A stretch of 38,427 nt of DNA from a virus. The notes beneath the pieces were generated by a model. That model made no database searches, was not told where the DNA came from, and worked only from the letters and a program-made list of their open reading frames with translations. A program made the translations under genes and the position numbers. The DNA lies in IMG/VR virus record IMGVR_UViG_3300033991_000034, positions 1 to 38,427 of that record; one strand, written 5' to 3'. This document shows positions 2,146-36,033 of the stretch, one piece after another. Position 1 is the stretch's first letter. Each line of letters starts with the position of its first letter.

Positions 2146-4359
2146 CTACAACCTCCACGATCCGTCGTGAGAAAACCCTGCATGACGCGAGGCGATTAAG
2201 GCAGCCGTCAACAACTGCTTTGATACGCATACCTCATCCAGCAGCCCGATTAGGCACTTCGGATCGGATAACAGGTTTTCGCCTCCAAGCTGGAATGGCT
2301 CGACGCTGTTCGTAATACTGCCGGTGATAGCACTGATGTCGAGAGACGCACCGACCTGCACGCCATCGACATAGACCTTCAGCAAGTCCAGAGTGCGGTC
2401 AACGGTCACCGCCAAATAGTGAAATGATCGATCATCCAAGTCCGCACCATATCCGCTGCCCTGCACTTCGGCCAGTCCGTCGCCCAGACATACATCGATC
2501 TTGCCCTCGGTGGTAAGCGATACCGAATAACCGGCGGCAACCGGACTGGGACTCGGCTCCGGCGACGGCGCCGGACTCGGATTGTCACCGATTTTGCGTA
2601 ATAAATACGTTGTCTCCGATACTGGAGCGGTAGCGAAGATCAGCTCAAGCGAGAAGTTGCTTGTCCCCATATCCAGTGCATCGGCGTCGACGGCCGCCAC
2701 TTCCAGCAAACCATCTTCGTTCAGGACGATACACGTCTTATTGTGATCGCAGACCCCGTAATCATACACGGCTCCCCCCGGAATATCCACAATACTCAAC
2801 ATCAGTCCATTGTCCGATGAATCGGCAAGCGATTCTGCGAATTTCCAATGACCTACGGTTGTCGAGAGTGAAGGCAATGTCTTCGTCGTATACGGTACCC
2901 GCTTGAAGCCAACCTCCCGCACTTCCATCTTCGGCTGAAATACTTCCGACCAGGTTTCCTGAAGCGAATGATCCGAGGTGAATCGGCAGAGTATCCAGTC
3001 GAGGCTGTCATAATCAGGCTTGAAGGCTACAGGAAGGACGCCCCCTTTGGACGCCTTGAAAGCATTCAGCAGCAGATCGGAATGCGCCTGCTGAACGAAT
3101 ACATACTCTTTGTCCGAAATCTTTACGTGTCCCCTGAATCGTCTCTCTTGATAGCCACTGCCGCTGCGGGCAAGCGCAAGATCATTGCCCCACTCGAATC
3201 TCAGGGGCTCCGGGTACTGGTTGTCATAGGGCAGGCTATAGTCGCGCAGAAACCAGACGCCGCCTATTTCCATTATCGGCCCGACAGGTATATCGTCAGG
3301 TCCTTCTATCGGATCGCCAAAACCTTCAAGGTTGAATATCCAATACTTGGCGGTTCGTGGAACCTCGAACTTAAGCACTATTAACGGCACTCCGGCTCTT
3401 CGGCTGTCAGTGAATAGTACACTTTCATAAGTCCGATAGTCAAATCCATCCATCGAACACATGAGTGACCACCTTTTATCGCCGCCGAAACCTTCATTGT
3501 AGTTGTGTATCCAGAATGCAAACGCATCAACTATCTGAGGATCATCGAACTTGAAATACAGGGAATGATTGGAAGTCGAACTCGGTCGCCAGTAGGTATT
3601 GGGATTATTGTCGAGCGCATATTTAGGCTCATGCGTCCCCGAATAGAGCATGCTGTAGTTGGTGTTCAGGTGTACGGCTGCATCGACCGGCGCGAGCAGG
3701 TTCCCTGCGCTGTCCCACTCAAGCTCTGGACTGGGTGAGGGTGAAGGTGAAGGCGACGGGTCGGACATATCCAGCAGCTCGAAGTTCGAGGCCTGCCCAG
3801 TACCGACCTTCAACTGCTTGGCGTTAGGCGCCGTGCCATAGCAGTACATCTTCAGGACGATTGTATCGTCAGAGACGAAATCAAAGGCGTCCTGTTCGCT
3901 CGTCCATTCTATCGGCCAGAGATCATTGCCGGGATTCTTTGTTGGACAGTAGGTTTCGAATAGTAGAGTAAGCTCGCCGGCTGCCGATCTCTTGTATATC
4001 TCGACGAGTATATAGATCGTGCCCGTTGTCCATGCTCCGCCCGCTGTCGCCGCGTACAACTGAAATTGCCAGGTCGCTGCAGGAATCCGACTGAAGCCTT
4101 CTGCTACGATCATGTCCCAGAATGCGCTTGACGGATCGCGGAAAAAGGATTTGTCGTAAGCATCACCCACATTGTAGGCGAAGAAGTTCAGCGGGTAGTT
4201 CTCGAAACCTGGATCGATCCATTTATATTGGAGATAGTTAGATGATGGAACACTCGTAAGGAGTTGCTGCCAGTAGAAATTCTTAACGCCCCAGGGGCCA
4301 GTATCATGCGAATCGTAGAGTGTATCGTCTGCTCGGCTAAAATAGAGTTTGACCGCCAT
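2146..4359 (-). CDS. Tail protein with discoidin-like and LamG-like carbohydrate-binding domains
   Basis: 737 aa, start overlapping the upstream stop by one base (TGATG). Residues about 1-200 are an unrecognised N-terminal domain. A Ser-Pro linker (bases 3727-3759) leads into an F5/8 type C (discoidin)-like domain (YALDNNPNTYWRPSS, then LYFKFDDPQIVDAFAFWIHN). The C-terminal third is a concanavalin A/LamG-type jelly roll (FHYLAVTVDRTLDLLKVYVDG, then LIGLLDEVCVSKQLL). A second Ser-Pro tract (2542-2580) sits in a LamG loop. Both fold families commonly bind glycans, so receptor recognition at the tail end is a reasonable inference. Position among distal tail genes supports it. Confidence 0.65.
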   Translation of the reverse strand: MAVKLYFSRADDTLYDSHDTGPWGVKNFYWQQLLTSVPSSNYLQYKWIDPGFENYPLNFFAYNVGDAYDKSFFRDPSSAFWDMIVAEGFSRIPAATWQFQLYAATAGGAWTTGTIYILVEIYKRSAAGELTLLFETYCPTKNPGNDLWPIEWTSEQDAFDFVSDDTIVLKMYCYGTAPNAKQLKVGTGQASNFELLDMSDPSPSPSPSPSPELEWDSAGNLLAPVDAAVHLNTNYSMLYSGTHEPKYALDNNPNTYWRPSSTSNHSLYFKFDDPQIVDAFAFWIHNYNEGFGGDKRWSLMCSMDGFDYRTYESVLFTDSRRAGVPLIVLKFEVPRTAKYWIFNLEGFGDPIEGPDDIPVGPIMEIGGVWFLRDYSLPYDNQYPEPLRFEWGNDLALARSGSGYQERRFRGHVKISDKEYVFVQQAHSDLLLNAFKASKGGVLPVAFKPDYDSLDWILCRFTSDHSLQETWSEVFQPKMEVREVGFKRVPYTTKTLPSLSTTVGHWKFAESLADSSDNGLMLSIVDIPGGAVYDYGVCDHNKTCIVLNEDGLLEVAAVDADALDMGTSNFSLELIFATAPVSETTYLLRKIGDNPSPAPSPEPSPSPVAAGYSVSLTTEGKIDVCLGDGLAEVQGSGYGADLDDRSFHYLAVTVDRTLDLLKVYVDGVQVGASLDISAITGSITNSVEPFQLGGENLLSDPKCLIGLLDEVCVSKQLLTAALIASRHAGFSHDGSWRL
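2542..2580 (-). repeat. Ser-Pro tract in the LamG loop of a tail gene
   Basis: In-frame (TCN/AGT CCN)n-type repeat encoding PSPAPSPEPSPSP between two strands of the LamG-like domain. Confidence 0.7.
3727..3759 (-). repeat. Ser-Pro hexanucleotide tract in a tail gene linker
   Basis: Five Ser-Pro units encoded by TCACCC/TCACCT-type hexamers, between the N-terminal and discoidin-like domains of the 737-aa tail protein. Confidence 0.75.
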
Positions 4360-5216
4360 CAGTACAACTCATCCCTTCCGACAATCGGGATCGTGGTAAA
4401 GCTCAGTATCGCCGTCCGCCATCCGATGGTGAACTTGTCGATGCTCACCGCGCTTTCGATCCTGACGAGCATCGGGTCGTTATCGCACTCCTGCATGGCC
4501 AGTATCGTCTCGCCGCCGTTCGTTTCGGCCAGCATGTCCATGAGAGTCTGATAGTCGGTATCGTCGACCGTGTAGATGCGGGTGAATCGGATATGCTCAT
4601 TCTCGCTATAGCCGAGCGATGCCAGCTCGCCGAACGGCATGCTCTGTGTTTCTTTCGGGTAGATCGTCGTCTCATCCATCGGGAATGCGGGTCCTGCCTC
4701 AATCTCGTATTTGCGGGCGAGCCACAAGGCGCTTGTCCTCAAATCGTCAGGCGCATAGTAGTTGGGCGGCACTACGCCGCTAAGCACAATCCGCCAATAG
4801 CGTTGAGCCGAACCGACTGAAAATTCAGAGACTTTTAGCAGATCACCGGAGACGCCCGGATCGACACTCAGCATCGCATGCGTATATACGGAATCGTCAT
4901 TTGAATACCAGACATCGGCATAGACCCCAGTCGGATAGGGCGAAGGTGAGGGTGATGGCGAGGGATACGGCCAGGGTGATACCGGCGACGGCAGATCGAC
5001 TTCATTATGCCTGTGTATCCAGACAAGCGCATGCGCCTCGACCGGCTTGCCGCAATCGATAGTCAGGTCATGCTGTTCATTGGTTCCATTCGCCTGCCAT
5101 GCGAAGTTCGGTTCCAGAATCAGCGCATGTTCCGCCGGATGCGCCGCCACCTGAGACGATACATCATGCACCACCGCCTCAGTCATAGCAGCAAGCGTAT
5201 AGAACTTAGTAGACAC
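4359..5216 (-). CDS. Distal tail protein, possible discoidin-like fold
   Basis: 285 aa, GTG start, overlapping the 3' end of the tape-measure gene by 11 bases. It follows tape measure and precedes the glycan-binding tail protein, the usual place of a distal tail (Dit-like) or minor tail protein. The N-terminal half has a discoidin-like pattern (LTIDCGKPVEAHALVWIHRHN, then DVWYSNDDSVYTHAM and YWRIVLSGV). It is interrupted by a long Pro/Ser/Tyr tract at 4932-4991. The C-terminal half (residues 190-285) has YTVDDTDYQTLMDMLAETNGG and resembles an ordinary tail-protein domain. Exact family uncertain. Confidence 0.55.
   Translation of the reverse strand: MSTKFYTLAAMTEAVVHDVSSQVAAHPAEHALILEPNFAWQANGTNEQHDLTIDCGKPVEAHALVWIHRHNEVDLPSPVSPWPYPSPSPSPSPYPTGVYADVWYSNDDSVYTHAMLSVDPGVSGDLLKVSEFSVGSAQRYWRIVLSGVVPPNYYAPDDLRTSALWLARKYEIEAGPAFPMDETTIYPKETQSMPFGELASLGYSENEHIRFTRIYTVDDTDYQTLMDMLAETNGGETILAMQECDNDPMLVRIESAVSIDKFTIGWRTAILSFTTIPIVGRDELY
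4932..4991 (-). repeat. Long Pro/Ser/Tyr tract in a distal tail gene
   Basis: Hexamer-derived tract encoding PSPVSPWPYPSPSPSPSPYP, inserted in a predicted loop of the discoidin-like half. Confidence 0.75.
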
Positions 5217-7335
5217 GTATGTTCCGACCGCCTGTTACATTTTCTGCGCTCAGCGCCAAATCGGATTTGCCGTTGGTCACCAGCTTGCGGAGCGTTGGCG
5301 CAACCTGTCGTTCGATAAACTCCGAGGACAGCACGTTACCGCTGAATGTCACGTTGATTGTGCTGCGGCCCGATATAGCTGGAGCCGGTGCGGCCATACT
5401 GGGCACCGCCAGGTTGCTTGCACTCGGCACTATGCCGCGCATGAATTGCGAACCGCTTCTCATGTTGTCAAACACGCCGCGGCTGAAGTAATGGGCGAAG
5501 TGCGCACCCTGCTCCATTGCCAGCCGGTCATATCGCGGCGTATCGAATATGCCGCCAAGCAAAACGCCGAGACCGGGGATAAAGGCATTAGCAATTGACG
5601 CAAGCGCCTGCTTGATGAAGAAGGCTAAGAAATCTTGATACATGCCTTTGAATATATCCCCAAGTCGTTCTTTTCCGCCCATCATGGCGCTTGCCATTTT
5701 ATTGGACATTTCAGTGAATCGATTTCCAATGATATTTGTTAGAGCTTGTGCGCTTGCTTTTTGTGCATCGGCCACCGCCCTATCAGCAGCTATGCGTTTC
5801 CGCCCTTCTTCCATTAAGGCTCTTGTCTCCTCCTGGCTCAACCCTAAACGCATGGCCTGATATTGAGTAGCCAATGCCAGTTTCTGCTCTTCGCTTATCT
5901 GTTCTGCCGCATAGATTGCATCGAATTGCGCTTGCGCATTCGTCAGTCTCTCCTCACGAAGTGTCTGGAGTTCCTCTTCCGCTTGTTTTGCAGCATTGAG
6001 TTTAGCGGTCTCAGCTTCTATCCATTGCCGCGCGGCTTCGGCGGACATGCCGGACTGTATAGCGAAATATCGAGTGGTGACTTCAATCTGTTTTTCTTTG
6101 GATAGCGTATCGGCAGTGAGTATCGCATTGAACATCTGCTGCTCGGATTGCAGATTCTCATCGTAGAGCTTACTGAGCTTGTCATTTAACTCAAGTTGCT
6201 TTTTTGCGGCTTCTTCGGCTGCTTCAGCTGCCGCCGCAGCTTCTTCGGCCTTCTGCTTATTGGCATTCTTGATTGTCTGATCGGTCATCACTGTCTGTTG
6301 ATACTGAAGATCGATCAGTTTGTCTTTGAGCGCTGTAACGCGTTCCTCTGCATATCCACCGGTAGTGATAAGCTTTTCAAACCAGGGCAGCTCAGCATAT
6401 TCTTTGGCGATGCGCTCTTGTTCCTGAAGTTCTTTTGTCGTGGCCGCGATTTGCGCTTGCACGCCTTCCAGATTGCCGGCAGTGACAAATCCACTCCAGT
6501 ATTGAGCTGCATCGGACACGAGGCTGAGGAAGTACTCGAATGCCGGTGACTGTATTATCACCCCCCCGATAGCCTCTTGCAGGTCTTTCATTCTCTGCTT
6601 GAGCAATTCGAGTTTACCAGCGGTAGTCAGCATCCTCGCGGCAGCGGCACCACCGAACATATCGCCAATCTTTTCCTGTAGTTGAATCATTCGCTCTTGC
6701 TGCGGCAAAGTATTGTCGATGACAATCCCCATTTTCTTAAGCGCCGTCGTGCTACCCACGTAGGCCTTGGCGATTAAGTTCGCCGCCTTTTCAAGATCGA
6801 TACCTTTGCCAACAGCCAAATCCATCGCAACGGTTGTATTTTTCATGGCGTCGCCGACGCTCATGCCCATATCATACAACCGCTGAAAGCCGGTACCCAC
6901 AAGCTTATCAGATATACCGGTCAACGTCTGCATTTCGGTGGCGAAGGCTCTGACCGATGAAATGTTAGTATCGACTGAATCGCGATGTCGGTCGAGTGAG
7001 GCGGACACATCACCCCAAACCTTGTCGCTTTCCATAGCAGCCTGGAGCGTGCCCTTAATAAAACCGGTGAATGCGGAAAACGCGCGCATGGCGGCGTTGG
7101 CCGCTATCGTGCCAATGGCTATGCCCGAAGTGAAGCGCGTGAATATCGGATGTCCCTTGTCCGCCGACTGATTGAGCAGCTTGAGTTCGCGTTCGAGTTT
7201 GTTGACCTCTCGCTGGCTTCTGACCATTGCCGGGCCGCCGAGGTCATTGATCTGCGTATTCAGCTTCTTGATCTTCTCGGCGGCGGCCTCGCGCGCCTCA
7301 AGTATAAGCTGATATTTTTCTTGTGAGCTGGCCAT
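5206..7335 (-). CDS. Tail tape measure protein
   Basis: 709 aa from ATG at 7335, in TGATG overlap with the chaperone frame. A TTG one codon upstream is a less likely start. The N-terminus is a coiled coil (EAREAAAEKIKKLNTQIND). Hydrophobic stretches follow (GIAIGTIAANAAMRAFSAF and IANAFIPGLGVLLGGIFD), and residues 360-560 are a long Ala/Glu-rich helical region. The segment SVRAFATEMQTLTGISDKLVG is typical of phage tape-measure N-domains. It is the longest tail gene and lies just after the chaperone pair, the conserved siphophage order. At about 0.15 nm per residue the length predicts a tail near 105 nm. Confidence 0.88.
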   Translation of the reverse strand: MASSQEKYQLILEAREAAAEKIKKLNTQINDLGGPAMVRSQREVNKLERELKLLNQSADKGHPIFTRFTSGIAIGTIAANAAMRAFSAFTGFIKGTLQAAMESDKVWGDVSASLDRHRDSVDTNISSVRAFATEMQTLTGISDKLVGTGFQRLYDMGMSVGDAMKNTTVAMDLAVGKGIDLEKAANLIAKAYVGSTTALKKMGIVIDNTLPQQERMIQLQEKIGDMFGGAAAARMLTTAGKLELLKQRMKDLQEAIGGVIIQSPAFEYFLSLVSDAAQYWSGFVTAGNLEGVQAQIAATTKELQEQERIAKEYAELPWFEKLITTGGYAEERVTALKDKLIDLQYQQTVMTDQTIKNANKQKAEEAAAAAEAAEEAAKKQLELNDKLSKLYDENLQSEQQMFNAILTADTLSKEKQIEVTTRYFAIQSGMSAEAARQWIEAETAKLNAAKQAEEELQTLREERLTNAQAQFDAIYAAEQISEEQKLALATQYQAMRLGLSQEETRALMEEGRKRIAADRAVADAQKASAQALTNIIGNRFTEMSNKMASAMMGGKERLGDIFKGMYQDFLAFFIKQALASIANAFIPGLGVLLGGIFDTPRYDRLAMEQGAHFAHYFSRGVFDNMRSGSQFMRGIVPSASNLAVPSMAAPAPAISGRSTINVTFSGNVLSSEFIERQVAPTLRKLVTNGKSDLALSAENVTGGRNIRVY

Positions 7336-8086
7336 CAACGCCTCTTCCGTGTAGGCTTCAACATATCCTTGACAACAAGTTCTTGCTGCTGCCTGCGCTG
7401 TGTCGCGGCGATCTCCGATTCGATGACGTCACAGGCGTCGACGTAGATCGCAGGAAGGTTCCAGTACTCATCATAAGAGCATCCCTTTGTCCCTTCCAGC
7501 CGTCTCCACAGGTTCCAGAGCATTAGGGAGAACGGGGTGATTACCGATGGTGCGCACAGATTGTAATAAACGCAACACGCCTCCCATATTGTGAGATCAC
7601 CACCACGCAGACCAGCACAATCAACCAATCGACTCCACGTATCTCGCGTTATGCTCACCGGCTGCAATCCCTGTCCGCGCGCTTCGATAGATTCTCGGCC
7701 ATATAGACAGGCTCGATGCTTGCATGGTTCTCCGCACTGCTTTAGTTCCCCGTCGGCTTTGGAGTGGACGTATCCGACGAGGAGCCGGAGTTTTTTGCCT
7801 GCTCATCCTTGATGGAACAGTAGTCGATCACATCATTGATGATCGTCAGCATATCACTGAAAGACTCGACCGAATTCAGCACATCTTTCGTTTCTTTGCC
7901 ATCAATAGACGCGATGACTGAGCACAGATGTTCGATCATTTGATCGTAAGATTCGGTAGTGGCCCGAAGCTTAGACAGTTGCTCGATGGCCATGAATTTC
8001 TGGCGCACGCTCATGCTGCGCATCTGAAATTCAGTATCGAGAATGGTAACGGTGTGATACTTGTTTGGGTCGACAAGTCGTAACAT
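7335..8086 (-). CDS. Tail assembly chaperone, -1 frameshifted long form (GT-like)
   Basis: Predicted fusion made by slipping -1 at A AAA AAC (7790-7796), 99 codons into the frame starting at 8086. The -1 frame is open from there to the stop at 7335 and gives about 250 aa. The extension holds a Cys/His cluster (CGEPCKHRACLYG) and the segment VSITRDTWSRLVDCAGLRGGD. No good independent start exists for it: a TTG at 7667 lies after 40 already open codons and lacks a clear ribosome site. Two overlapping frames just upstream of tape measure, joined by a slippery site, are the classical G/GT arrangement. The product would chaperone tape measure during tail assembly. Confidence 0.75.
7742..8086 (-). 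CDS. Tail assembly chaperone, short form (G-like)
   Basis: 114 aa with a GGAGG ribosome site before ATG at 8086. It begins MLRLVDPNKYHTVTILDTEF and is mostly helical with an acidic, Ser/Thr-rich tail (SGSSSDTSTPKPTGN). It lies between the tail tube and tape measure genes, where siphophages encode the G chaperone. The frame ends 16 codons after the slippery heptamer, so most ribosomes should make this short form and a minority the fused long form. Confidence 0.72.
   Translation of the reverse strand: MLRLVDPNKYHTVTILDTEFQMRSMSVRQKFMAIEQLSKLRATTESYDQMIEHLCSVIASIDGKETKDVLNSVESFSDMLTIINDVIDYCSIKDEQAKNSGSSSDTSTPKPTGN
7790..7796 (-). promoter_or_regulatory. -1 ribosomal frameshift slippery site A AAA AAC
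   Basis: Read on the minus strand in the zero frame the codons are CAG GCA AAA AAC TCC. The heptamer A AAA AAC keeps both tRNAs paired after a one-base backward slip, and the new frame (CTC CGG CTC) stays open to 7335. No upstream Shine-Dalgarno-like stimulator was searched for systematically. Confidence 0.75.
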
Positions 8087-8103
8087 TCAGACCTCCACGT
8101 TGT

Positions 8104-9102
8104 TTACCAGCCCCTATTCGTTTCGTTCATCACGGCCAACACGAACATCGGATCGACCGCGCCATTCGTGACTGACAGCATCCGGCAAGTGATCGATTCG
8201 GCAAGCAAGCCGTCCTCCGACTGCTCTGCATCTTCGACCTTGCCCGTCACATCAATCGTCATCTCGCCCAGGTCGAGTGTGAATCTGCACATCATGTTGT
8301 TGGTGATCGCCGCAAGGATGTCGGTCGCCGTCGAGTCTCTGAGCAGATCGATTTTGAACGAGCCGCCGCGATTCATAAACGCAAGCATCTCGAATCCGGT
8401 TATCGGATCGTGTCCGACCTTTTCGATCTCGTAATTCGATTCGATTTCAAAGCTCCGGATCAGCACGTTCACCGGACTGGCCAGGCCTGCCGAGAAATCG
8501 AGCGTCGCTGCCTCGATGTCATTGAAATAGAGAAAGTCGGCGTCATCCGAAGGTGTCCACGTTCCGGACGGATTAGAAGTGTCAACTCCCGGTCCGACAC
8601 CGCGCAGTGTCGCCTCGTACATGACTAGTTCGTCACGCGCCGCCGACAGCTTGAAGTTGCTGCATACACAGCCGCCGACCTTGTACGACGTGCTCGCTTC
8701 CGGCATGCGCCGAATGAACGTCAGAAACTTGCCCGCGTTAGCCGTGAAATCCGGATGCGTCTCGTAATGCTCGAAGGTCTTGGTGTAGGGCGTCGACGCA
8801 CCCTCCGTCACCTTCTGGAAATGAGCATAAGCGAGCAAGTCGATGTCATTGAGATTGACCGGGCCCGCAAGGACGATTTCCCCCGATCCGCCCCGATCTG
8901 TGACGATCACGTGTTGCTGCGTCGGGTTTTTGCTGCCGTGATTCGCGGCGATCTCGTATACTTGCTGATCGCGTGAGACCTTGCACGAATCAAGCGTCAG
9001 TTCGATGAACTCGGCGTTGTCGAGTTCGACGGTAGCATAAGCGGCTTGTTCGCGAATGCCGAACCGCCGCTCCATAGATTCACGAATTTCTTCCAAGGCC
9101 AT
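8104..9102 (-). CDS. Major tail tube protein
   Basis: 332 aa, starting MALEEIRESMERRFG with an AAGGA-type ribosome site. It lies directly before the chaperone pair and after the tail terminator genes, the standard place for the tube protein. The sequence is beta-rich with repeated tube-like motifs (FIELTLDSCKVSRDQQ, then IRSFEIESNYEIEKVGHDPITG and CRFTLDLGEMTIDVTGKVED). It is longer than a minimal tube protein (about 150-250 aa), which suggests an additional surface domain. The assignment rests mainly on gene order and beta character. Confidence 0.7.
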   Translation of the reverse strand: MALEEIRESMERRFGIREQAAYATVELDNAEFIELTLDSCKVSRDQQVYEIAANHGSKNPTQQHVIVTDRGGSGEIVLAGPVNLNDIDLLAYAHFQKVTEGASTPYTKTFEHYETHPDFTANAGKFLTFIRRMPEASTSYKVGGCVCSNFKLSAARDELVMYEATLRGVGPGVDTSNPSGTWTPSDDADFLYFNDIEAATLDFSAGLASPVNVLIRSFEIESNYEIEKVGHDPITGFEMLAFMNRGGSFKIDLLRDSTATDILAAITNNMMCRFTLDLGEMTIDVTGKVEDAEQSEDGLLAESITCRMLSVTNGAVDPMFVLAVMNETNRGW

Positions 9103-9105
9103 AGC

Positions 9106-9456
9106 CTATCCTTTCTTTTTAAATCCCATAACGAGTCCTTGCCAGCCCAGGGTTACGTTACGATCCTCGTCGTGCGGCTTGTCATCGCTTCGATATTCGT
9201 CTTCGCCGTCATCGATTTCGCCGACATCTTCGGTAGTTGCAACATCACGGTCATCGACCGTCACCTGATTTGCAGGGGGTCTGCCTCCGGCTTTCAGTGC
9301 ATAGCCATTGTCGATCAGTATCTGCGCCTTGTCCTCCGGCAGCTCGATGACCTCGCCGCGTTTCAGTTGATCGATGAAGAATGGCGCAATCGTATACTGC
9401 CGCGAGAGTCGTTTCAGACCATGAGGATCAATATGCTTGCTTCTTCTGATTCGCAT
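9106..9456 (-). CDS. Small acidic phage structural-module protein
   Basis: 116 aa, one-base overlap with the upstream terminator gene. The N-terminal half holds a short helical motif (ELPEDKAQILIDNGYAL) often seen in small head-tail module proteins. The C-terminal half is highly acidic (DVGEIDDGEDEYRSDD) and ends in a basic GFKKKG. I do not recognise a specific family. Its position between terminator and tube genes suggests a role in tail completion. Confidence 0.5.
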   Translation of the reverse strand: MRIRRSKHIDPHGLKRLSRQYTIAPFFIDQLKRGEVIELPEDKAQILIDNGYALKAGGRPPANQVTVDDRDVATTEDVGEIDDGEDEYRSDDKPHDEDRNVTLGWQGLVMGFKKKG

Positions 9457-9911
9457 TATGGGTATCCCTCCACCTTATGAATGATGACTATGATTTCCGC
9501 ACCAACACTCCGGCTTTCGGCGAATTCCAGATTGATCCCTTCGCTTGCAAAGCCCATGAGCATGTATCTGTCTCCGAAGTCCATGTCCGACTTGATGACG
9601 GTGATGACCTGGTCTACAAGGTCAAGCGTCGACGCGAGTTGTTCGACGCCCCCCGAATAGCTCGTATGTACTCTGACCGATATTCTGATCTCGTGATTTT
9701 CGATGAACTGACCAGAGCCGAAGCCGGCATCCGATGTTACCGGAATGTTGCTCACCGGCTCGACGGTGATTGCATCGAGCACGAGATTGGCCACCGCATG
9801 ATATGAATAGACGTTGACCAGTGGTGAAGGCGATGGTGAAACGCCGACACCGATTTCATCCAACAGCCGATTGTAGACCTTGCTGTGGGCCGTGGCGGTC
9901 GTCGTCGACAT
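9456..9911 (-). CDS. Tail terminator/completion-like protein with a Ser-Pro insert
   Basis: 151 aa, overlapping both neighbours by one base. The sequence alternates beta strands and helices (HEIRISVRVHTSYSGGVEQLA, then STLDLVDQVITVIKSDMDF and VGAEIIVIIHKVEG), as in tail terminator proteins. The short tract SPSPSP (bases 9822-9839) is inserted near the N-terminus. Together with the next gene it occupies the place of a tail completion pair between head-tail joining and tube genes. The function is inferred from position. Confidence 0.5.
   Translation of the reverse strand: MSTTTATAHSKVYNRLLDEIGVGVSPSPSPLVNVYSYHAVANLVLDAITVEPVSNIPVTSDAGFGSGQFIENHEIRISVRVHTSYSGGVEQLASTLDLVDQVITVIKSDMDFGDRYMLMGFASEGINLEFAESRSVGAEIIVIIHKVEGYP
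9822..9839 (-). repeat. Ser-Pro tract in a tail terminator-like gene
   Basis: Three Ser-Pro units (SPSPSP) near the N-terminus. Confidence 0.65.
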
Positions 9912-10309
9912 CAGTTCGCCCCTCTGCTCGATACGTAGATGATGTCGACAACGATCCGGCTGCTTGAATATGCGTCGTCCGTTATCAAGTTGACCGGCTC
10001 TTGCCCGACGAGCTGCATTTGAAGTGCACCCGTCGGCAGTGTTGCACCCTCGATGACGTCCTTAACGTCGACAATCAAGTCCTCAATAGCCTCACCCTTG
10101 ACCATGAGGATGAGATCAACGGTCAGCCCCCAGCGCGTGTGCGTTGCGTCTCTGACCAACACCTCTTCGGTCGAGGCCAACACGCCGATATATGGTGCGG
10201 CGTCACGAGCGCCCTGGGGTGTTTTCAACCTTCGTGTACACGTCACGCTCGTAATGCCGCCGAGCATCGTGACCAGGCTGTCGATCAGCGTCTCTTTGGT
10301 GTCAGGCAC
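9911..10309 (-). CDS. Tail terminator-like protein
   Basis: 132 aa (MPDTKETLIDSLVTMLGGI) with the compact alpha/beta pattern of tail terminator proteins: an N-terminal helix, then RWGLTVDLILMVKGEA, a helix, and SSSRIVVDIIYVSSRG. It overlaps the upstream HK97 gp10-like gene by 8 bases. The role would be capping the tail tube at the neck. This is an inference from gene order and secondary-structure pattern. Confidence 0.55.
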   Translation of the reverse strand: MPDTKETLIDSLVTMLGGITSVTCTRRLKTPQGARDAAPYIGVLASTEEVLVRDATHTRWGLTVDLILMVKGEAIEDLIVDVKDVIEGATLPTGALQMQLVGQEPVNLITDDAYSSSRIVVDIIYVSSRGAN

Positions 10310-10706
10310 GGAACAACCTCGTCATGTAATCCCGGAGAATGCGCTTGATCTGAGTCTTCGATTGGACGAAAGCGCGGGTGGCGTATGATGTTTTTTTGAT
10401 CTTCGTCTTGTGACCTCGACCGGTCATGCCCCCGAGGTCGTGGATACGGGCATAAGGCACTTGTCCGAGATCGGACTGAATGGACAATTGCCAGCCGAGA
10501 TTCGATAAGCGGCTCAGCACATACTCCCATGAGTCATGCAGTCGACCCGTCCGCCTATGCAGATAGCGCCCGCTACAGTTGCGCCGAACGTTGCGCACCA
10601 CCAGCACGCCTATCTTATCCAGTTCGACCGGCAATCTGCCGAGGTGTTCCAGCGCATGCGGCAGCTTGCGAGATTTCAATGGCGGCCTGACTGTCAGCGG
10701 CATCAC
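10302..10706 (-). CDS. Head-tail joining protein (HK97 gp10-like / virion morphogenesis)
   Basis: 134 aa, four-base overlap (ATGA) with the upstream connector gene. It is basic, with segments TGRLHDSWEYVLSRLSNLG, VPYARIHDLGGMTGRG and KRILRDYMTRLFRA. The pattern 'YARIHDLGG' near the C-terminal part is typical of phage morphogenesis proteins of the HK97 gp10 / Mu gpG type. It lies between connector and terminator genes as expected for a neck component. Confidence 0.65.
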   Translation of the reverse strand: MMPLTVRPPLKSRKLPHALEHLGRLPVELDKIGVLVVRNVRRNCSGRYLHRRTGRLHDSWEYVLSRLSNLGWQLSIQSDLGQVPYARIHDLGGMTGRGHKTKIKKTSYATRAFVQSKTQIKRILRDYMTRLFRA

Positions 10707-11302
10707 CTATACCTCTTGTACTTGGCGATGATGGTCGCGAAGTCCCGCGATACCGAGGCAAAACCAAACGGCGTTTGCCACAATGCGTCCATATTATCCG
10801 CGTAAGTAAATGACTGCTCGCCGTCAGATTGCGATTTGATACCATCTCTGATCTGTCTCTTCTCGAAATGCTGAATCAGCAGAAAGCAGGCGTATTTCAG
10901 ATCAGGGGGTATGCCGTCGTCATATCCATAACTGTAGGTGATGCGCCAGTTGTCGACGCCCTTGTGGAACGTGTAGCGCTCGGTAAACCAGACCTTGCCC
11001 GTCTCCTCGTCCCAGGTAAACGTCATGTTGAGTTCGGAAACATCCTGCCAGTCGGTGCCCGTCCAGTACTCGATGGTATCCACGCTGTCTATCGGTGCGT
11101 TTCGAGTCCATATCCGAAACTTGCCGTTGCCGCTGAATATCTCGACGGTGTCCAGGGGTGATGGGCTGCAAGCATAGAGATCGCGGTCGAGTTCTTTCTC
11201 GATGACCTCAGTCGCCATTTCGATCAAAGCTTCGACTTGGGCCTGATTCTCCAGAGGCAGAGTCTTGTTCGCAAACTCGGCATATTCGGCGATTGTTATC
11301 AT
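10703..11302 (-). CDS. Head-tail connector (HK97 gp6-like adaptor)
   Basis: 199 aa, GGAGG ribosome site upstream of ATG at 11302. The N-terminal helices (AEYAEFANKTLPLENQAQVE, then EALIEMATEVIEKELDRDL) and the mixed strand region (IEYWTGTDWQDVSEL, then WRITYSYGYDDGIPPDLKYAC) match the gp6-like adaptor family that docks under the portal. A two-unit Ser-Pro insert (SPSP, bases 11156-11167) interrupts a predicted beta hairpin just after DRDLYAC. Confidence 0.72.
   Translation of the reverse strand: MITIAEYAEFANKTLPLENQAQVEALIEMATEVIEKELDRDLYACSPSPLDTVEIFSGNGKFRIWTRNAPIDSVDTIEYWTGTDWQDVSELNMTFTWDEETGKVWFTERYTFHKGVDNWRITYSYGYDDGIPPDLKYACFLLIQHFEKRQIRDGIKSQSDGEQSFTYADNMDALWQTPFGFASVSRDFATIIAKYKRYR
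11156..11167 (-). repeat. Two-unit Ser-Pro tract in the connector gene
   Basis: SPSP in a beta-hairpin position just after DRDLYAC. Confidence 0.5.
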
Positions 11303-20136: not shown

Positions 20137-21231
20137 TTATTCTATTTTCAAGGGCATAAGTAAGTAGAAATATTCCGAGATATTGATCGGCTTGAACAGT
20201 GCGGCGCTCAGCGAGCGGATCATTTCAATCCTAACCTTCTGAGTCTCTATCCGCTTGACAATTTCGAGCACGTAAAGCAGATTGAAGCCAATCTCTATCG
20301 ATTGGCCCGTCAACTCGCAGTCGAGTGATTCTGTGGCATGTCTCCCGGAATCCGCCTTCTCGGCCGAAAGCACCAACCGCCCCTCACTAATTTCAAAACG
20401 CACAGAGTGCGTAAACTCATTCGCCGCAATCTCCAGGCGATCAATGGCATCAATCAACTCTTGCCGGTCAATGAGCACGATAGTCTTGAAGTCGGTGGGG
20501 ATTACGTGGGTGATGTTCGGATACGGCCCCTCGATCAGCACGCTTGCAATCTCCGTCTCGTCCGAGCGGAAAGTGACATGCTTATCGCCAAAAGTCACGA
20601 AGAATTCCGATGCGTTCTTGGCTATTGACGCCACCGAGGACAGCGCATCGGGCGGCACAATAACCTCAGCGCGTTCTACGCTTTTGATCTCGGTCTCATT
20701 CCATGCAAGCCTGTGCGCGTCCGTCGCCGCGACAAGCATCTTGTCCCCCAAGCGCCAGTATACCCCGTTGAGCGCGGGCCGCGATATATCGGTGCTCGCA
20801 CAGAAAGCTGTGCGATTCACGACCATGATGAAATGATCGGGGTTGAGCGCGCACTCACCCTCGCACTCATGGTTGCGAATACGCGGAAACTCGTCGGCCG
20901 GTATTGTGGCAAAGCGGTATTCTCCTGACGCGCTCTTGAGCGTAAGCTGATTTTCTGAGGCCTCAAGATGAACTAAATGCTCGGCAGACAACCTGGAAAA
21001 CAATTGAGTCAAGGAAATCGCCGGCGCACAGACAGCGCCGTCGACTTTCGAGTCCACCGCTATGCTCGTAGTGATCGCAAGATTCAAATTGCTGCGGCTC
21101 AGGATAAGCTCTCCGCTCTTTACTCGGAGCAGGACACATTCAAGGATGGGAACAGGCGTCCGCCCCGCCCGAACATGGTTGACGATGTTCAGAGCTTTGA
21201 GCATTTCTCCCGCCGTGATCTGTAGTTTCAC
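20137..21231 (-). CDS. dnaN: DNA polymerase III beta sliding clamp
   Basis: 364 aa from GTG at 21231 (MKLQITAGEMLKALNIVNHV), overlapping the upstream stop as GTGA. This gives the normal clamp length (about 366 aa). An extra upstream extension to 21384 is rejected because it overlaps the neighbouring gene. Three clamp domains are recognisable: VPILECVLLRVKSGELILSRS in domain 1, DISRPALNGVYWRLGDKMLVAATDAHRLAW in domain 2 (split here: RPALNGVY and ATDAHRLAW), and a C-terminal YFYLLMPLKIE. It would tether the replicative polymerase to phage DNA. Phage-encoded bacterial-type clamps are uncommon. Confidence 0.9.
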   Translation of the reverse strand: MKLQITAGEMLKALNIVNHVRAGRTPVPILECVLLRVKSGELILSRSNLNLAITTSIAVDSKVDGAVCAPAISLTQLFSRLSAEHLVHLEASENQLTLKSASGEYRFATIPADEFPRIRNHECEGECALNPDHFIMVVNRTAFCASTDISRPALNGVYWRLGDKMLVAATDAHRLAWNETEIKSVERAEVIVPPDALSSVASIAKNASEFFVTFGDKHVTFRSDETEIASVLIEGPYPNITHVIPTDFKTIVLIDRQELIDAIDRLEIAANEFTHSVRFEISEGRLVLSAEKADSGRHATESLDCELTGQSIEIGFNLLYVLEIVKRIETQKVRIEMIRSLSAALFKPINISEYFYLLMPLKIE

Positions 21232-21419
21232 GTCATATTCCCTTTCTTGTGAATCATGTAATGATGCGAGCAGAGAGGTATCTCCTTCGTATCGGGGAAT
21301 GCCCGCAGAACAACATCCTTGAGCATCGCATTCACCCTCGACGGGGGCGGAAATGCGGATGGAACTCCGCTGCAAATCACGCACCGCGTCGAATCAAGCT
21401 CTTTCGGCATCTCACTCAC
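21228..21419 (-). CDS. 63-aa Cys/His protein, possible zinc-binding
   Basis: GTG start at 21419, overlapping the nuclease gene's stop, with GGAG seven bases upstream. The sequence holds CVIC near the N-terminus and CSHHYMIH near the C-terminus, a plausible zinc site of the type seen in small phage HNH-like or zinc-finger proteins. It is coupled to dnaN by the GTGA overlap. Function unknown. Confidence 0.5.
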   Translation of the reverse strand: MSEMPKELDSTRCVICSGVPSAFPPPSRVNAMLKDVVLRAFPDTKEIPLCSHHYMIHKKGNMT

Positions 21420-22334: not shown

Positions 22335-23223
22335 CTTCTCCCTCGCTTTTCGCAAGCCAGTTGAGTCCAGCCTGCAGGGTTTTGCGCCCAGCTTCCGAGA
22401 GTTGAGTATCCGAGGGCTTCTGATTTCGGTACTTCTCGAATTTCCCTGGCCGGTAGAGCGTCTGAGGATTCAAGTATTTCGCCATATCGCTCCCCAGCCA
22501 TTCCGCACATTTGATCCGATGGACGTACAGGAAATCCTCGAATGTGTAGCCTTCTGCTATCCGCGCTCTGATCGCTTTCTGAGTAGTCGGTCTATCAGCA
22601 TGAAACTGCGAGCCGGTTCTTTGGTTAAGATCGGCAATTATCTTCTCGAAAGTTTCTTGCTCGGTTCCTGCGCATGACTCCCCCTGGGGGGAATATAGGG
22701 GGGAATCAGGATCAGTATCGGAATGGTTATTCTGATCGGAATCAGGATCAGGATCAGGATCTGTGTATGCGATAACTGAACCGATAGTAAGCGATTGGTA
22801 TTCGATTGGTATCCCGATTGGTATACTTAACTTGTAGTAATTACAGTATTTAGCAATAATGCTTATGGATGGCAGGCCATTGAGGACTTTATGGATCGCC
22901 GTTACGTGTTTTGGATTGGTCAAGTTTACATAAGGATCGTGCTTCACCTGATTGCGAAGCCATAAAATCGGTTCTTCGTAGATCACGTATTGGTTATCGA
23001 TTAGTTCTCGAATAGCAATCTCAAGCTTCTTGATTGATATTCCGGTCTGATCTGCGACTGTTACTTTGGCTCCGAGATCAAAGACGAAAATCCCTGCCAT
23101 GTTATTCAGGCGGGTCAACTTGAGAACATGGAAAACATGACGAGCATCAGAGGACATTGACTTGAATTTCGGCGTGTCCAGCAGCACAGCATGCGTTGCC
23201 CTATATGATCCTCGGCTACTCAT
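22327..23223 (-). CDS. Replication initiator with Phg_2220-type C-terminal domain
   Basis: 298 aa from ATG at 23223 with GAGGTG upstream. A GTG at 23265 has no ribosome site. The N-terminal half has a winged-helix-like character (SMSSDARHVFHVLKLTRLNN, then TGISIKKLEIAIRELIDNQY). A low-complexity Asp-Pro linker follows (DPDPDPDSDQ). The C-terminal part (FEKIIADLNQRTGSQF, IAEGYTFEDFLYVHRIKC, LNPQTLYRPGKFEKY) matches the conserved phage replication-protein C-terminal domain TIGR02220/pfam09524. Iteron-like repeats lie inside the gene, as in lambda O. Confidence 0.8.
   Translation of the reverse strand: MSSRGSYRATHAVLLDTPKFKSMSSDARHVFHVLKLTRLNNMAGIFVFDLGAKVTVADQTGISIKKLEIAIRELIDNQYVIYEEPILWLRNQVKHDPYVNLTNPKHVTAIHKVLNGLPSISIIAKYCNYYKLSIPIGIPIEYQSLTIGSVIAYTDPDPDPDSDQNNHSDTDPDSPLYSPQGESCAGTEQETFEKIIADLNQRTGSQFHADRPTTQKAIRARIAEGYTFEDFLYVHRIKCAEWLGSDMAKYLNPQTLYRPGKFEKYRNQKPSDTQLSEAGRKTLQAGLNWLAKSEGEDD
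22704..22762. repeat. GGATCA/AATCAG short tandem repeats in the initiator gene
   Basis: Clustered copies of ATCAGG and related hexamers on the plus strand, encoding the Asp-Pro linker of the initiator. They border the 10-bp iterons. They could be part of an origin or simply a low-complexity linker. Confidence 0.6.
22792..22824. repeat. Three helically phased iterons, candidate replication origin
   Basis: CGATTGGTAT occurs three times at 22792, 22803 and 22815, spaced 11 and 12 bases apart, so all face one side of the helix. The next 40 bases are about 77% A+T, a plausible unwinding element. The repeats are inside the initiator gene, as in lambda O. Confidence 0.55.
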
Positions 23224-24479: not shown

Positions 24480-24973
24480 TTCGACTCCTTCTGTATTCGG
24501 GAATATCCGAGCTTGCCCTTGAGAATTTCGTCAATCACCTCGCTAAGTCTTTCCGGCTGCATTTCGCGCAGATGACCGGCATGGACAACGGATCGACGCA
24601 GGCGAGGAGTTACTTCTATCCGCCTTGGCTGTGAGGCATTGATCTGCAACTGAGCAGCGATCTCTTGCGCTGAACGTCTGCGGTGCGGCTTGTTATCCTG
24701 CGCGCGTTTCTTCGGTGGTATCTCCGGCTCGAATTTGGGTACGGGATCAGCAAGATAGCTGATCTCAACATCGAAAATGTCCGACAGCCTCCTCACGTCC
24801 GATAGTCGTGGCTGTCGATAGCCGAGTTCGAGTTTGACGATGTAATTCTCGGCGGTGGCGGGAGACACTTCCGGTCTCAATTGCATTCCAAGTCGTTCAA
24901 GCGTGAGGCCTCGCTTATTTCTGAGCCCGCGCAGCCGAGCGCCGAATTCGGGCAAGACTTTGGCATCTTTCAT
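24476..24973 (-). CDS. XRE-family helix-turn-helix regulator
   Basis: 165 aa from ATG at 24973, in ATGA overlap with the dockerin-like gene. The HTH lies at residues 10-65 (FGARLRGLRNKRGLTLERLG, then KLELGYRQPRLSDVRRLSD and IFDVEISYLAD). The rest is basic and lacks a LexA-type peptidase domain. It sits within the early operon rather than next to the divergent switch, so it may regulate a later step. An upstream extension to 25135 is a shadow of the neighbouring gene. Confidence 0.7.
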   Translation of the reverse strand: MKDAKVLPEFGARLRGLRNKRGLTLERLGMQLRPEVSPATAENYIVKLELGYRQPRLSDVRRLSDIFDVEISYLADPVPKFEPEIPPKKRAQDNKPHRRRSAQEIAAQLQINASQPRRIEVTPRLRRSVVHAGHLREMQPERLSEVIDEILKGKLGYSRIQKESK

Positions 24974-25458
24974 TGCGCCGAATCCGCCTGGGCTAGATAA
25001 TAAGTCGAACCAAGCTCTCGAATGGACACAACGCGGCGCAATGAATCGGCATCGACAAGAACATCGAGATATAGAATGCGGACGTAAGCCTGCCGGACGG
25101 ATACGTAGGAGATCGGGAGAGGTTCCGGTCCGCATTGCAAGGCATAGGCGATGATGTAAACGGCATCATCGATATCCACATCTCCGCTGGCATCCACGTC
25201 GCCGACGAGAATGCCGGGATATAGAACGAATGCCTGTGGACGCACCAGCGTGTCAATCTGTACGTATGAAATCGTATCAGTATCGCTCGCAGAGGACATT
25301 GCATTTGATATTGAGTCAATCGGATTGATTTCTCGAATGCTATCTGCGCTACTGTTCGGGCCTATCAGCGATATTAGAAGTAAGAATAGTGTAAAGCACA
25401 AACAACAGACATCGAACATTCCAAAATGAATGAATCTTGTGAGTCTTTCTCTGCGCAT
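24970..25458 (-). CDS. Exported protein with one dockerin-like calcium loop
   Basis: 162 aa, GGAGG site before ATG at 25458. The N-terminus holds a membrane/signal segment (CCLCFTLFLLLISLIG). The central motif GDVDASGDVDIDDAVYIIAY is one type I dockerin repeat: Asp ligands at alternating positions of an EF-hand-like loop followed by a helix. True dockerins have two copies. Single or double repeats of this form with 'GG/CGPEPLP' after them are abundant in secreted proteins of Zixibacteria and relatives, so this is a host-origin clue. The cargo or partner is unknown. Confidence 0.6.
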   Translation of the reverse strand: MRRERLTRFIHFGMFDVCCLCFTLFLLLISLIGPNSSADSIREINPIDSISNAMSSASDTDTISYVQIDTLVRPQAFVLYPGILVGDVDASGDVDIDDAVYIIAYALQCGPEPLPISYVSVRQAYVRILYLDVLVDADSLRRVVSIRELGSTYYLAQADSAQ

Positions 25459-33330: not shown

Positions 33331-33358
33331 GAAATGGTAGATGAGAGGACGATCACTA

Positions 33359-34798
33359 ATGAGAAAATGTCTCGCAGGCCCCTTCATCGGTGAATTCGGT
33401 TGGGAGCTTTTTTGTTGGCAAGGCTTTCTCCGCAAGCGCCGATCCGACTATGATTCGATGACCGTCATTTGCAGAAAAGGCCATTCGATTCTATATGCGG
33501 ATTTCGCCGATGAGGTTATCGAGATTGATATTCCCGTGGATAATGTGAACGAATGGATGAATAGAGGCTTCGATCCAAATCAGACGGTCAATTACTATAA
33601 GAGTGCCGGCGAATTTACAGATTTCATTCCGTTCAATGCATTCAAATCGTGGTGGTGGAAAAACTCATCTGCATGGAACAGGCAGATATTCAAAGCCCTT
33701 GGACAAAAACATGACACATTGAAAACTGACATTCTGATTCACGCTCGCAATGCTCATCACTATGGATCATCTTACCGCAATTGGAAACAACCTGATGCTG
33801 ATCTATATGGTCAATGGGCAAGCAGTCAAGGGTATTCGATTGCATCGATAGGATTATCACAAAGCTCGACTCACATATCTGCCGGATTAGATTATCGAGA
33901 CAAATCACTTGCGGAGTTGGCGGATATAATGGCAAGCAGTCGACTCCTGATTGGTTCGCAATCAGGGCCGACACATTATGCGGCGCTTTGTAAGTTGCCG
34001 GTGATTGCATGGCAACAATCATCCGAAAGCGCAGTCCGTGTTGAAAGGCATTGGAATCCATTCAACGTTGAGACTCGCACGAAACCGGCGGATATTGTCC
34101 TCAAGGCCAAACGCGAATCATTCACTCCGCCTCTCGAATGGATGCAGGATGCAACATTGGACATACTGAAACGATCAGAAGTTCGAGGGAATGGATTATC
34201 TCAAGATGAAATCAGACGATATTGGGATGATAGATCATCCAAACAAGACGCGTGTACTGTCGGCCCCTATGGTTCATCTTTAAGAGAGCAAGATAACATC
34301 TATCAGGAACGCTTTGCTTTTATGCAGCATCGAATGCCATTCACGTATCGGACACTCGACTTCGGCTGTGGTATAGGTCGTTGCAGTTCATTATTCGATT
34401 CGGCGAAATATCTGGGTGTCGACATCTGTTCAAATCTGATCGAACTTGCAAAAACACGGAATCCGGGTTACGAATACAAACTACTTGGCAAGCCATTGAT
34501 AGAAGATATTGATTTTGTATATGACTGTTTTTTCACGTCAACGGTCTTGCAGCACAATGACGACGCGTCTGTTGTAGCCATATTCAAATCGGTTAAGCAG
34601 TCTATCCGGGGTCGACCGCTTACTCTTTGTCTATACGAGAACACTTCGGAAAATCCCAACAAGGCACATATCTGTTTCAGGAGTGTCACGAGATATGAGG
34701 AACTGATTCGCAGTGTATTTTCCATTGAGAATTTTGACTCGTGGTCACATATTTCATATAGGGAACGGCACTCGCTTATGGTTGCGCGGGTCAAATAG
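33359..34798 (+). CDS. Glycosyltransferase-methyltransferase fusion
   Basis: 479 aa from ATG at 33359 (MRKCLAGPFIGEFGWELFCW); an ATG at 33341 lacks a ribosome site. The N-terminal domain (1 to about 265) has the GT9/heptosyltransferase-like end: SSRLLIGSQSGPTHYAALCKL, then PVIAWQQ. The C-terminal domain (about 325-479) is a class I SAM methyltransferase with TLDFGCGIGRCSSLFD and YLGVDICSNLIELAK. A methylated sugar or glycan is the likely product: modification of host surface polysaccharide, phage capsid or phage DNA. The substrate is unknown. Confidence 0.65.
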   Translation: MRKCLAGPFIGEFGWELFCWQGFLRKRRSDYDSMTVICRKGHSILYADFADEVIEIDIPVDNVNEWMNRGFDPNQTVNYYKSAGEFTDFIPFNAFKSWWWKNSSAWNRQIFKALGQKHDTLKTDILIHARNAHHYGSSYRNWKQPDADLYGQWASSQGYSIASIGLSQSSTHISAGLDYRDKSLAELADIMASSRLLIGSQSGPTHYAALCKLPVIAWQQSSESAVRVERHWNPFNVETRTKPADIVLKAKRESFTPPLEWMQDATLDILKRSEVRGNGLSQDEIRRYWDDRSSKQDACTVGPYGSSLREQDNIYQERFAFMQHRMPFTYRTLDFGCGIGRCSSLFDSAKYLGVDICSNLIELAKTRNPGYEYKLLGKPLIEDIDFVYDCFFTSTVLQHNDDASVVAIFKSVKQSIRGRPLTLCLYENTSENPNKAHICFRSVTRYEELIRSVFSIENFDSWSHISYRERHSLMVARVK

Positions 34799-34883: not shown

Positions 34884-34987
34884 ATCTTGAGAATCTCGCA
34901 ATGATAATGAAACTGATCGCGTCATTGGCAGTAATCATTGCGGCTATTTTTTTCATCATGGTGGCCAAAGAGCGATGGAGAAAATGA
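34880..34987 (+). CDS. 35-aa single-membrane-segment peptide
   Basis: GAGGAG six bases before ATG (MNLENLAMIMKLIASLAVII), then AAIFFIMVAKERWRK. One clean membrane span with a positive C-terminus, overlapping the next gene by ATGA. Small phage membrane peptides can be holin-like, host-interfering or anchors. No lysis gene is adjacent. Confidence 0.5.
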   Translation: MNLENLAMIMKLIASLAVIIAAIFFIMVAKERWRK

Positions 34988-36033
34988 CCGACCGCATCGA
35001 CGACATCCACGATCTGCGAGTTCTGATCTGGGCATGCGGAGAGCAGGAGAGATTCGCAGGGCCGCATGTTTACCGTGAGGCGAAACGGCAAGGCTTAAAT
35101 GTAGATATGATCGTGAGTCGTGGAAACCCTGATAGCATGATTCACTATGTGGACGACCTGATTTCCAAGAAGCAGAAGCCTCATTGGATTTTCAACTATG
35201 TTAAGTTGAGCACACGACTCAACGAGTATTATGACTTGATAAAAATGCGTGGGATCAATCAGGCCTGGCCGTATCACGACCAAATGACAGCCGACAGAAT
35301 AAGGATGTGGAACGAGCTAAAAGATAAGGCGGATGTAGTATTTTTCGCTATGCTCCACAATGCACAGAGTTTCAGAAATCATGCTAAGCATGTTCTATGG
35401 ATTCCTCAATACTTCGATGTCGAACGTTGTAGACGAGATGGACGGCTGCCTCGGCGACTCGATCCCAGTAAACCGATATATGATCTATGCTTCATAGGGG
35501 GCAGGGACGGACGACGCAGAGAGTGGATAATCAAACTCAACAGGCGATTTAGATGTTGGTTTAACAAGATCGATTTGCGATCAAATAGATATGATGTGCG
35601 CGGCTACGACATGGCCGAAGTCTACGCCCAGTCAAAAATGGCGATCAATATCCAATGGCGGCAATTTGTGAGAAATGATCCGTTTATTACTTCAAATCGA
35701 GCATACAACGCGATGGGCAGCGGATGTTTCTTCCTCAACCACTACGTCAATCAAATGGAACTGCTCTGGCAGGAAGGTATTCATTGCGTGACCTACAATG
35801 ATTCTTATGAGGAGCTTGAGACGAAGATTCGCTTCTGGCTTGCACCAGAGAACGAGAGCAAACGGGAGGAGATCGCGCGAGCCGGTCAAGACGATGTGCT
35901 GATGTATCACACGCTCGAACGCCGCATCCCCCAGTATTGGCGGATCATGCAGGCGATTCAGAACAGCGAAACCGCCGATCTTCAGAAGTGGTCATTCGAG
36001 CAGCAGGGAAAGTTCGTAACGAGGAATTGGTGA
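34984..36033 (+). CDS. CgeB-like glycosyltransferase
   Basis: 349 aa from ATG at 34984 in ATGA overlap. The C-terminal half carries the CgeB/Glyco_trans_1_2 pattern: YDLCFIGGRDGRRREWIIKLN, then YDMAEVYAQSKMAINIQWRQ, SNRAYNAMGSGCFFLNHYV and EELETKIRFWLAPE. The N-terminal half (VLIWACGEQERFAGPHVYRE) is the first Rossmann lobe. With the preceding fusion gene it makes a small glycosylation cassette. The acceptor may be a virion protein, modified DNA base or host glycan. Confidence 0.75.
   Translation: MTDRIDDIHDLRVLIWACGEQERFAGPHVYREAKRQGLNVDMIVSRGNPDSMIHYVDDLISKKQKPHWIFNYVKLSTRLNEYYDLIKMRGINQAWPYHDQMTADRIRMWNELKDKADVVFFAMLHNAQSFRNHAKHVLWIPQYFDVERCRRDGRLPRRLDPSKPIYDLCFIGGRDGRRREWIIKLNRRFRCWFNKIDLRSNRYDVRGYDMAEVYAQSKMAINIQWRQFVRNDPFITSNRAYNAMGSGCFFLNHYVNQMELLWQEGIHCVTYNDSYEELETKIRFWLAPENESKREEIARAGQDDVLMYHTLERRIPQYWRIMQAIQNSETADLQKWSFEQQGKFVTRNW

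Follow-up and report, generated by a model that had tools for sequence, protein, structure and literature searches.

The window analyzed here, a stretch of 38,427 nucleotides of viral DNA (positions 1 to 38,427 of IMG/VR record IMGVR_UViG_3300033991_000034), encodes a tail glycan-binding protein, a distal-tail-like protein, a tail-terminator-like protein and a head-tail connector, together with a further tail protein that is cut by the contig edge (Table 1). Besides its Pfam families, the glycan-binding protein matches the CBM32 entry 7blg by PDB profile (E 0.005); profile comparison gave no significant family match for the terminator-like protein. No match to the connector, the distal tail protein or the glycan-binding protein was found among 50,697 described-phage records, and a search for prophages or a host, in which capsid and tail-protein profiles were run twice against 84,980 species genomes, revealed no relative.

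Table 1. Positions of the genes, Ser-Pro tracts and other features discussed (window positions unless a record is named)
Feature	Position	Strand	Sequence, match or remark
Next tail protein, cut by contig edge	1..2145	-	Core domain, SP site and C-terminal domain in homologues
Tail glycan-binding protein, 737 aa	2146..4359	-	Pfam PF13385 and PF00754 (LamG/Laminin_G_3 and F5/8 type C)
Tract 2, tail glycan-binding protein	2542..2583	-	Degenerate PSPAPSPEPSPSP; insert in LamG loop
Tract 1, tail glycan-binding protein	3727..3762	-	PSPSPSPSPSP; (SP)5 at 3756-3727
Distal-tail-like protein, 285 aa	4359..5216	-	Gene order and weak F5/8C match only
Tract, distal tail protein	4932..4979	-	SPWPYPSPSPSPSPYP; contains PYP(SP)4YP
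Tail-terminator-like protein, 151 aa	9456..9911	-	Gene order only
Tract, tail-terminator-like protein	9822..9839	-	(SP)3; length-variable site
Head-tail connector, 199 aa	10703..11302	-	PHROG 442, E 1e-21; PF24163, PF05135
Tract, head-tail connector	11156..11167	-	SPSP, i.e. (SP)2
DNA polymerase III sliding clamp	20137-21384		Phage-encoded; all three domains
Six-base tract, replication-initiator-like protein	22702-22761		DPDPDPDSD, in frame
Small protein with dockerin-like stretch	24970-25458		GDVDASGDVDIDDAVYIIAYALQCGPEP
Glycosyltransferase genes, window	33341-34798; 34975-36033
Glycosyltransferase genes, other records	G001:18-509; G006:2913-3317; G009:18643-18984; G013:52926-53294
Stalked proteins	L006:14171-15319; L152:37-1485; L152:1863-2945; L154:1167-1901		Long (SP)n joining an N-terminal domain to a short basic C-terminal end
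Common repeat proteins	L018:14957-16507; L023:16841-18502		RSDIMDATGHV... type
PurZ-like region	L146:1868-6149		L021's record

Ser-Pro tracts in the virion genes

Five Ser-Pro tracts were confirmed in frame, all on the minus strand. The earlier note had placed (TCN CCN)n repeats in five virion genes; the number holds for the tracts, which lie in four genes, the glycan-binding protein having two. Its statement that the tract-bearing proteins are unrelated to one another stands.

Across the 6,018 residues of the window's virion proteins, five runs of at least two SP units were observed versus 0.047 in shuffled sequences, and three runs of at least three units versus 0.0002, while the non-virion proteins (4,412 residues) contained none. 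The shuffle comparison rules out a chance origin for runs of at least three units. Two-unit matches also occur on the non-coding strand of the window (n=6), and the (SP)2 of the connector, taken alone, is unremarkable and not beyond chance. It becomes meaningful because relatives have SP at the same site (SPSPSP in contig E and (SP)4 in contig L154).

At the DNA level, the tract units draw serine from both TCN and AGY codons and use all four proline codons. Adjacent identical hexamers were counted once versus 0.8 expected, and the tracts of the window do not form pure repeats of DNA. A pure six-base repeat is found in L019, a more distant relative, as (TCACCG)11.

Outside the virion genes, the window carries a further in-frame six-base tract in a replication-initiator-like protein, as well as a phage-encoded sliding clamp. 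It also encodes a small protein with a dockerin-like stretch, without Pfam or NCBIfam match, which presumably resembles proteins known from uncultured phyla, Zixibacteria for example, and may be a hint to the host.

Site conservation and inserted domains

Three IMG/VR contigs whose virion proteins are mostly 70-90% identical to those of the window (W) were compared with it site by site (B, 3300018070_000100; C, 3300034152_000231; D, 3300031111_000136). Wherever covered, tract length was identical in the connector, in the distal tail protein and in tract 2 of the glycan-binding protein; B also matched the window in the length of tract 1. Only the terminator site was clearly variable, its tract being 7 residues longer in B and missing from C and D. 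Over comparable codons, amino-acid differences amounted to 4% within tracts versus 27% elsewhere, and synonymous-only differences to 58% versus 35%, an excess partly expected from the sixfold degeneracy of serine and the fourfold degeneracy of proline. Neither identical neighboring units nor words common to different tracts were in excess in W, B or C, and the scrambled codons, with the lack of shared-word excess, led to the rejection of slippage or copying for the tracts of the window. Because site and, for the most part, length are kept, amino-acid change is limited to 4% and no signal of slippage or copying was found, the window tracts are best read as selected, fixed linkers and not as live microsatellites. 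The proposal that in-frame expansion varies loop length is therefore not borne out in the window, where four of the five sites are fixed where covered; in the more distant relatives described below, in-frame tracts do expand.

In the alignment, tract 1 follows a diverged N-terminal domain and precedes the F5/8C/CBM32-like one. Compared with B, the glycan-binding protein is 27% identical upstream of this tract and 82% identical downstream, and tract 1 marks a sharp module boundary, produced by swap or divergence.

The wider family comprises eleven more contigs, with capsid proteins 50-60% or tail proteins 32-35% identical. Relative to these homologues, the distal tail tract is part of an insert of about 20 residues that is lacking in L018 and L154, and tract 2 is an insert in the LamG domain relative to L153 and L155, with the same length in B. 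Two core virion proteins carry, in some members, an accessory domain at a place where their relatives are domain-free. In L154, the terminator harbors a domain of about 170 residues exactly at the window's tract site, between DPSPSPSPS and PVPSPEPSPV, and homologues of this domain (30-47% identity) occur in three other SP-bearing genes of the same contig. The connector of L019 and L020 contains a domain of about 175 residues where the window has SPSP, and no SP linkers flank it. In the window itself, both terminator and connector have bare tracts only. L019 also has another domain which, together with (SP)12, is fused to the apparent N-terminus of the neighboring gene's product.

Family profiles gave no significant match for the L154 and L019/L020 inserts, nor for several of the accessory domains, and a solved-structure search with the inserted domains returned nothing significant. 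A further domain of L019 has a sub-threshold match to choice-of-anchor R, and one L021 protein reaches 23.6 bits with BACON_2 (cut-off 25) and 37.7 bits with choice-of-anchor D (cut-off 45); the other accessory domains showed no Ig-like fold match (Big_2, I-set, Fn3, BACON).

Because homologues either lack the tracts or have whole domains at the same sites, the tract sites are insertion-tolerant and, as aligned, fall at domain joints and in loops. This agrees with the earlier placement of the tracts in loops or linkers, as far as alignments can tell, and adds a point that the earlier note missed: accessory domains are inserted at the very places that the tracts mark.

Tract length and tract DNA in the wider family

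Tracts in the wider family are often longer and more numerous. L021 has about 52 and 74 SP units in two genes, the tail proteins of L018 and L021 have about 16-17 units each, and L154 contains eleven tracts over six genes. The (SP)12 of L019 is encoded as (TCACCG)11, a pure tandem repeat, and L018 has a TCTCCG-rich run with identical units in excess. In the next tail protein, a tract follows the core domain in six out of six homologues, with differing lengths, and is itself followed by a C-terminal domain; the window contig ends 24 nt short of the SP site expected there. A backward-read control pattern gave zero matches across the family records searched with it, which, with a G+C content of 36-59% in these records, rules out high-G+C frame noise.

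Analysis of tract DNA revealed the same unit in unrelated genes, beyond the expectation from codon usage (obtained by permuting synonymous codons), in L021 and L154 but neither in W nor in B or C. Three genes of L021 have tracts with a common 24-nt unit; 45 words of 48 nt are common to different genes of this contig versus 0.04 expected, and exact matches between genes extend over 59-107 nt. The L154 unit measures 12 nt; in this contig, 17 words of 36 nt are common to different genes versus 0.00 expected, and exact matches between genes reach 43-60 nt. The two genomes have no common tract sequence of at least 20 nt, though both come from one sample. Copying or homogenization within each genome explains this sharing better than independent expansion. 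The long tracts of L021, of 312 and 444 nt, are longer than a short read, and assembly may have produced both their exact sequence and the 107-nt match. Such error is less of a concern for the tail tract of L021 and for the tracts of L154, none of which exceeds 102 nt apart from the L154 tract at a contig end. The suggestion that in-frame repeats spread between genes thus gains support from two relatives and, given the lack of shared-word excess, none from the window.

These observations bear on a rival view, in which the tracts are ordinary inherited proline-rich linkers that each arose once, by point mutation and small duplication, and stayed immobile, their recurrence reflecting a good linker composition. 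The fixed site and length in close relatives, the scrambled codons without copying signal in W, B and C, and the presence of single SP tracts in many unrelated viral contigs all agree with it. However, genome-specific units common to different genes in L021 and L154 argue against immobility. Tracts in 3-6 genes per genome were, moreover, not found among 80 SP-selected control stretches save for a few at 56-73% G+C, a rough comparison as these stretches are at most 15 kb long. The earlier note had taken same-site tracts of fixed length in distant phages as the mark of ordinary linkers; the same sites recur, and fixed length is confined to the close clade. We consider this view improbable, if the best of the competing ones.

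Several features of the wider family may be recorded here. The stalked proteins of Table 1 end in a basic segment (RRxHYV or RRSVFMY type) that may anchor them in the virion. Proteins of L018 and L023 have a different common repeat and are 32% identical; the L018 copy adjoins an SP tract. In the L021 record, a PurZ/adenylosuccinate-synthetase-like protein, a dATP/dGTP diphosphohydrolase domain and a family A polymerase with DpoZ similarity are adjoining, making this record a candidate 2-aminoadenine (Z) genome, with all NCBIfam matches below cut-off.

Proposed interpretation of the tracts as tethering linkers

We favor, with a probability of about 0.62, the reading that the (SP)n tracts are linkers tethering accessory domains to core virion proteins, expanded and spread in bursts and then fixed by selection. 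Its directly supported elements are the sites and lengths of the tracts, the same-site domain insertions, the sharing between genes in two relatives and the protein conservation in the window. In one uncultured siphophage-like family, (SP)n would form extended, proline-stiffened linkers or stalks at the few sites that virion proteins tolerate, probably in exposed loops. They would tether F5/8C/CBM32-like, LamG, choice-of-anchor-like and other uncharacterized domains to tail and head proteins, acting as a stiff, soluble spacer that keeps these domains off the particle; the domains themselves may bind host or environmental glycans. Elsewhere, tracts would stay as bare linkers where relatives have a domain.

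Regarding their origin, the tracts may be seeded and expanded in bursts from a genome-particular unit of 6, 12 or 24 nt, the expanded unit being copied or homogenized between genes in two genomes, presumably by recombination rather than parallel expansion. Synonymous change would later erode the repetitiveness of the DNA while selection keeps the Ser-Pro sequence, which would be the present state of the window. Its bare tracts could then be linkers kept by selection, possibly left after domain loss. A bolder extension, in which brief stretches of sequence common to many virion genes make (SP)n-coding DNA a portable recombination joint, by which linkers and domains are copied among structural genes as a built-in re-dressing of the particle, is tentative and, in our view, rather doubtful.

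The tethering reading is compatible with a further possibility, that phage glycosyltransferases modify the tract serines and turn the tracts into O-glycosylated, mucin-like shielding or binding arms. A PF13524 glycosyltransferase, along with a gene like the one at window positions 33341-34798, is present in the large tract-bearing records W, L018, L021 and L155, whereas in L023, which has no tracts, PF13524 matches only weakly and the second gene is missing; B, L018, L021 and L155 also have a GT2 gene close to the tail gene that bears a tract. This co-occurrence rests on only five large genomes, and glycosyltransferases are common in phages, where they have other roles such as DNA or host-surface modification. 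Glycosylated stalks seem rather unlikely, yet worth retaining as an extension of the tethering reading. Counted by type, L023 is without two of the three glycosyltransferase types.

The 6-nt repeat units of simple-sequence contingency loci keep the reading frame. That the tracts are such microsatellites, whose slippage would tune loop length within the population, is the least probable explanation and a distinctly poor one: the pure run of L019 and the TCTCCG-rich run of L018, the unequal tract lengths among tail-protein homologues and the contig ends, including that of the window just before its expected tract, speak for it, but the window tracts are impure and, in relatives 70-80% identical, of invariable length except in the terminator. 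As for these contig ends, C and L154 terminate inside tracts and L019 about 50 nt beyond one, so that 3 out of 30 ends have a tract no more than 60 nt away versus 0.69 expected (P 0.03).

Linkers tethering accessory domains have counterparts in known systems. Secreted bacterial multidomain enzymes contain Pro/Ser- or Pro/Thr-rich low-complexity spacers between catalytic or binding domains; unlike these, the SP tracts are found in head and tail proteins of virions and are spread among genes. In 936 (skuna)phages, carbohydrate-binding modules decorate Dit, the major tail protein and the neck (PMC6669499), and Dit inserts of the lactococcal 936 phages have a demonstrated role in adsorption (PMC10688798). 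The present family resembles the evolved Dit of these phages in having extra domains inserted in the virion proteins of a siphophage, but differs by the (SP)n at the joints, by the sites in the terminator-like protein and connector and, in two relatives, by linker DNA common to several genes. Ig-like domains have been described as promiscuous on phage virions (Fraser et al. 2006, cited in PMC6949934), as have crAss-BACON repeats, with duplication and horizontal movement (PMC6949934). Promiscuous domains are likewise present here on several unrelated virion proteins, but they are other, mostly undescribed domains, and the repeated element is the linker. We found no report of Ser-Pro tracts in phage virion proteins in the literature searched, which covers few subscription journals; as far as this search extends, what is new are joints made of Ser-Pro, insertion sites in the terminator and connector, and linker DNA that different genes have in common.

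Under the tethering reading, the joints can be seen directly in this family: the linker DNA keeps the reading frame and occupies a fixed set of tolerated sites, which in different members are bare, hold a linker alone or bear a domain. The family also shows that a terminator-like protein and a connector, both generally regarded as constrained, have natural sites for insertion. It bears on how the same kind of domain may enter unrelated structural genes without breaking them, and would make the spread of such domains testable.
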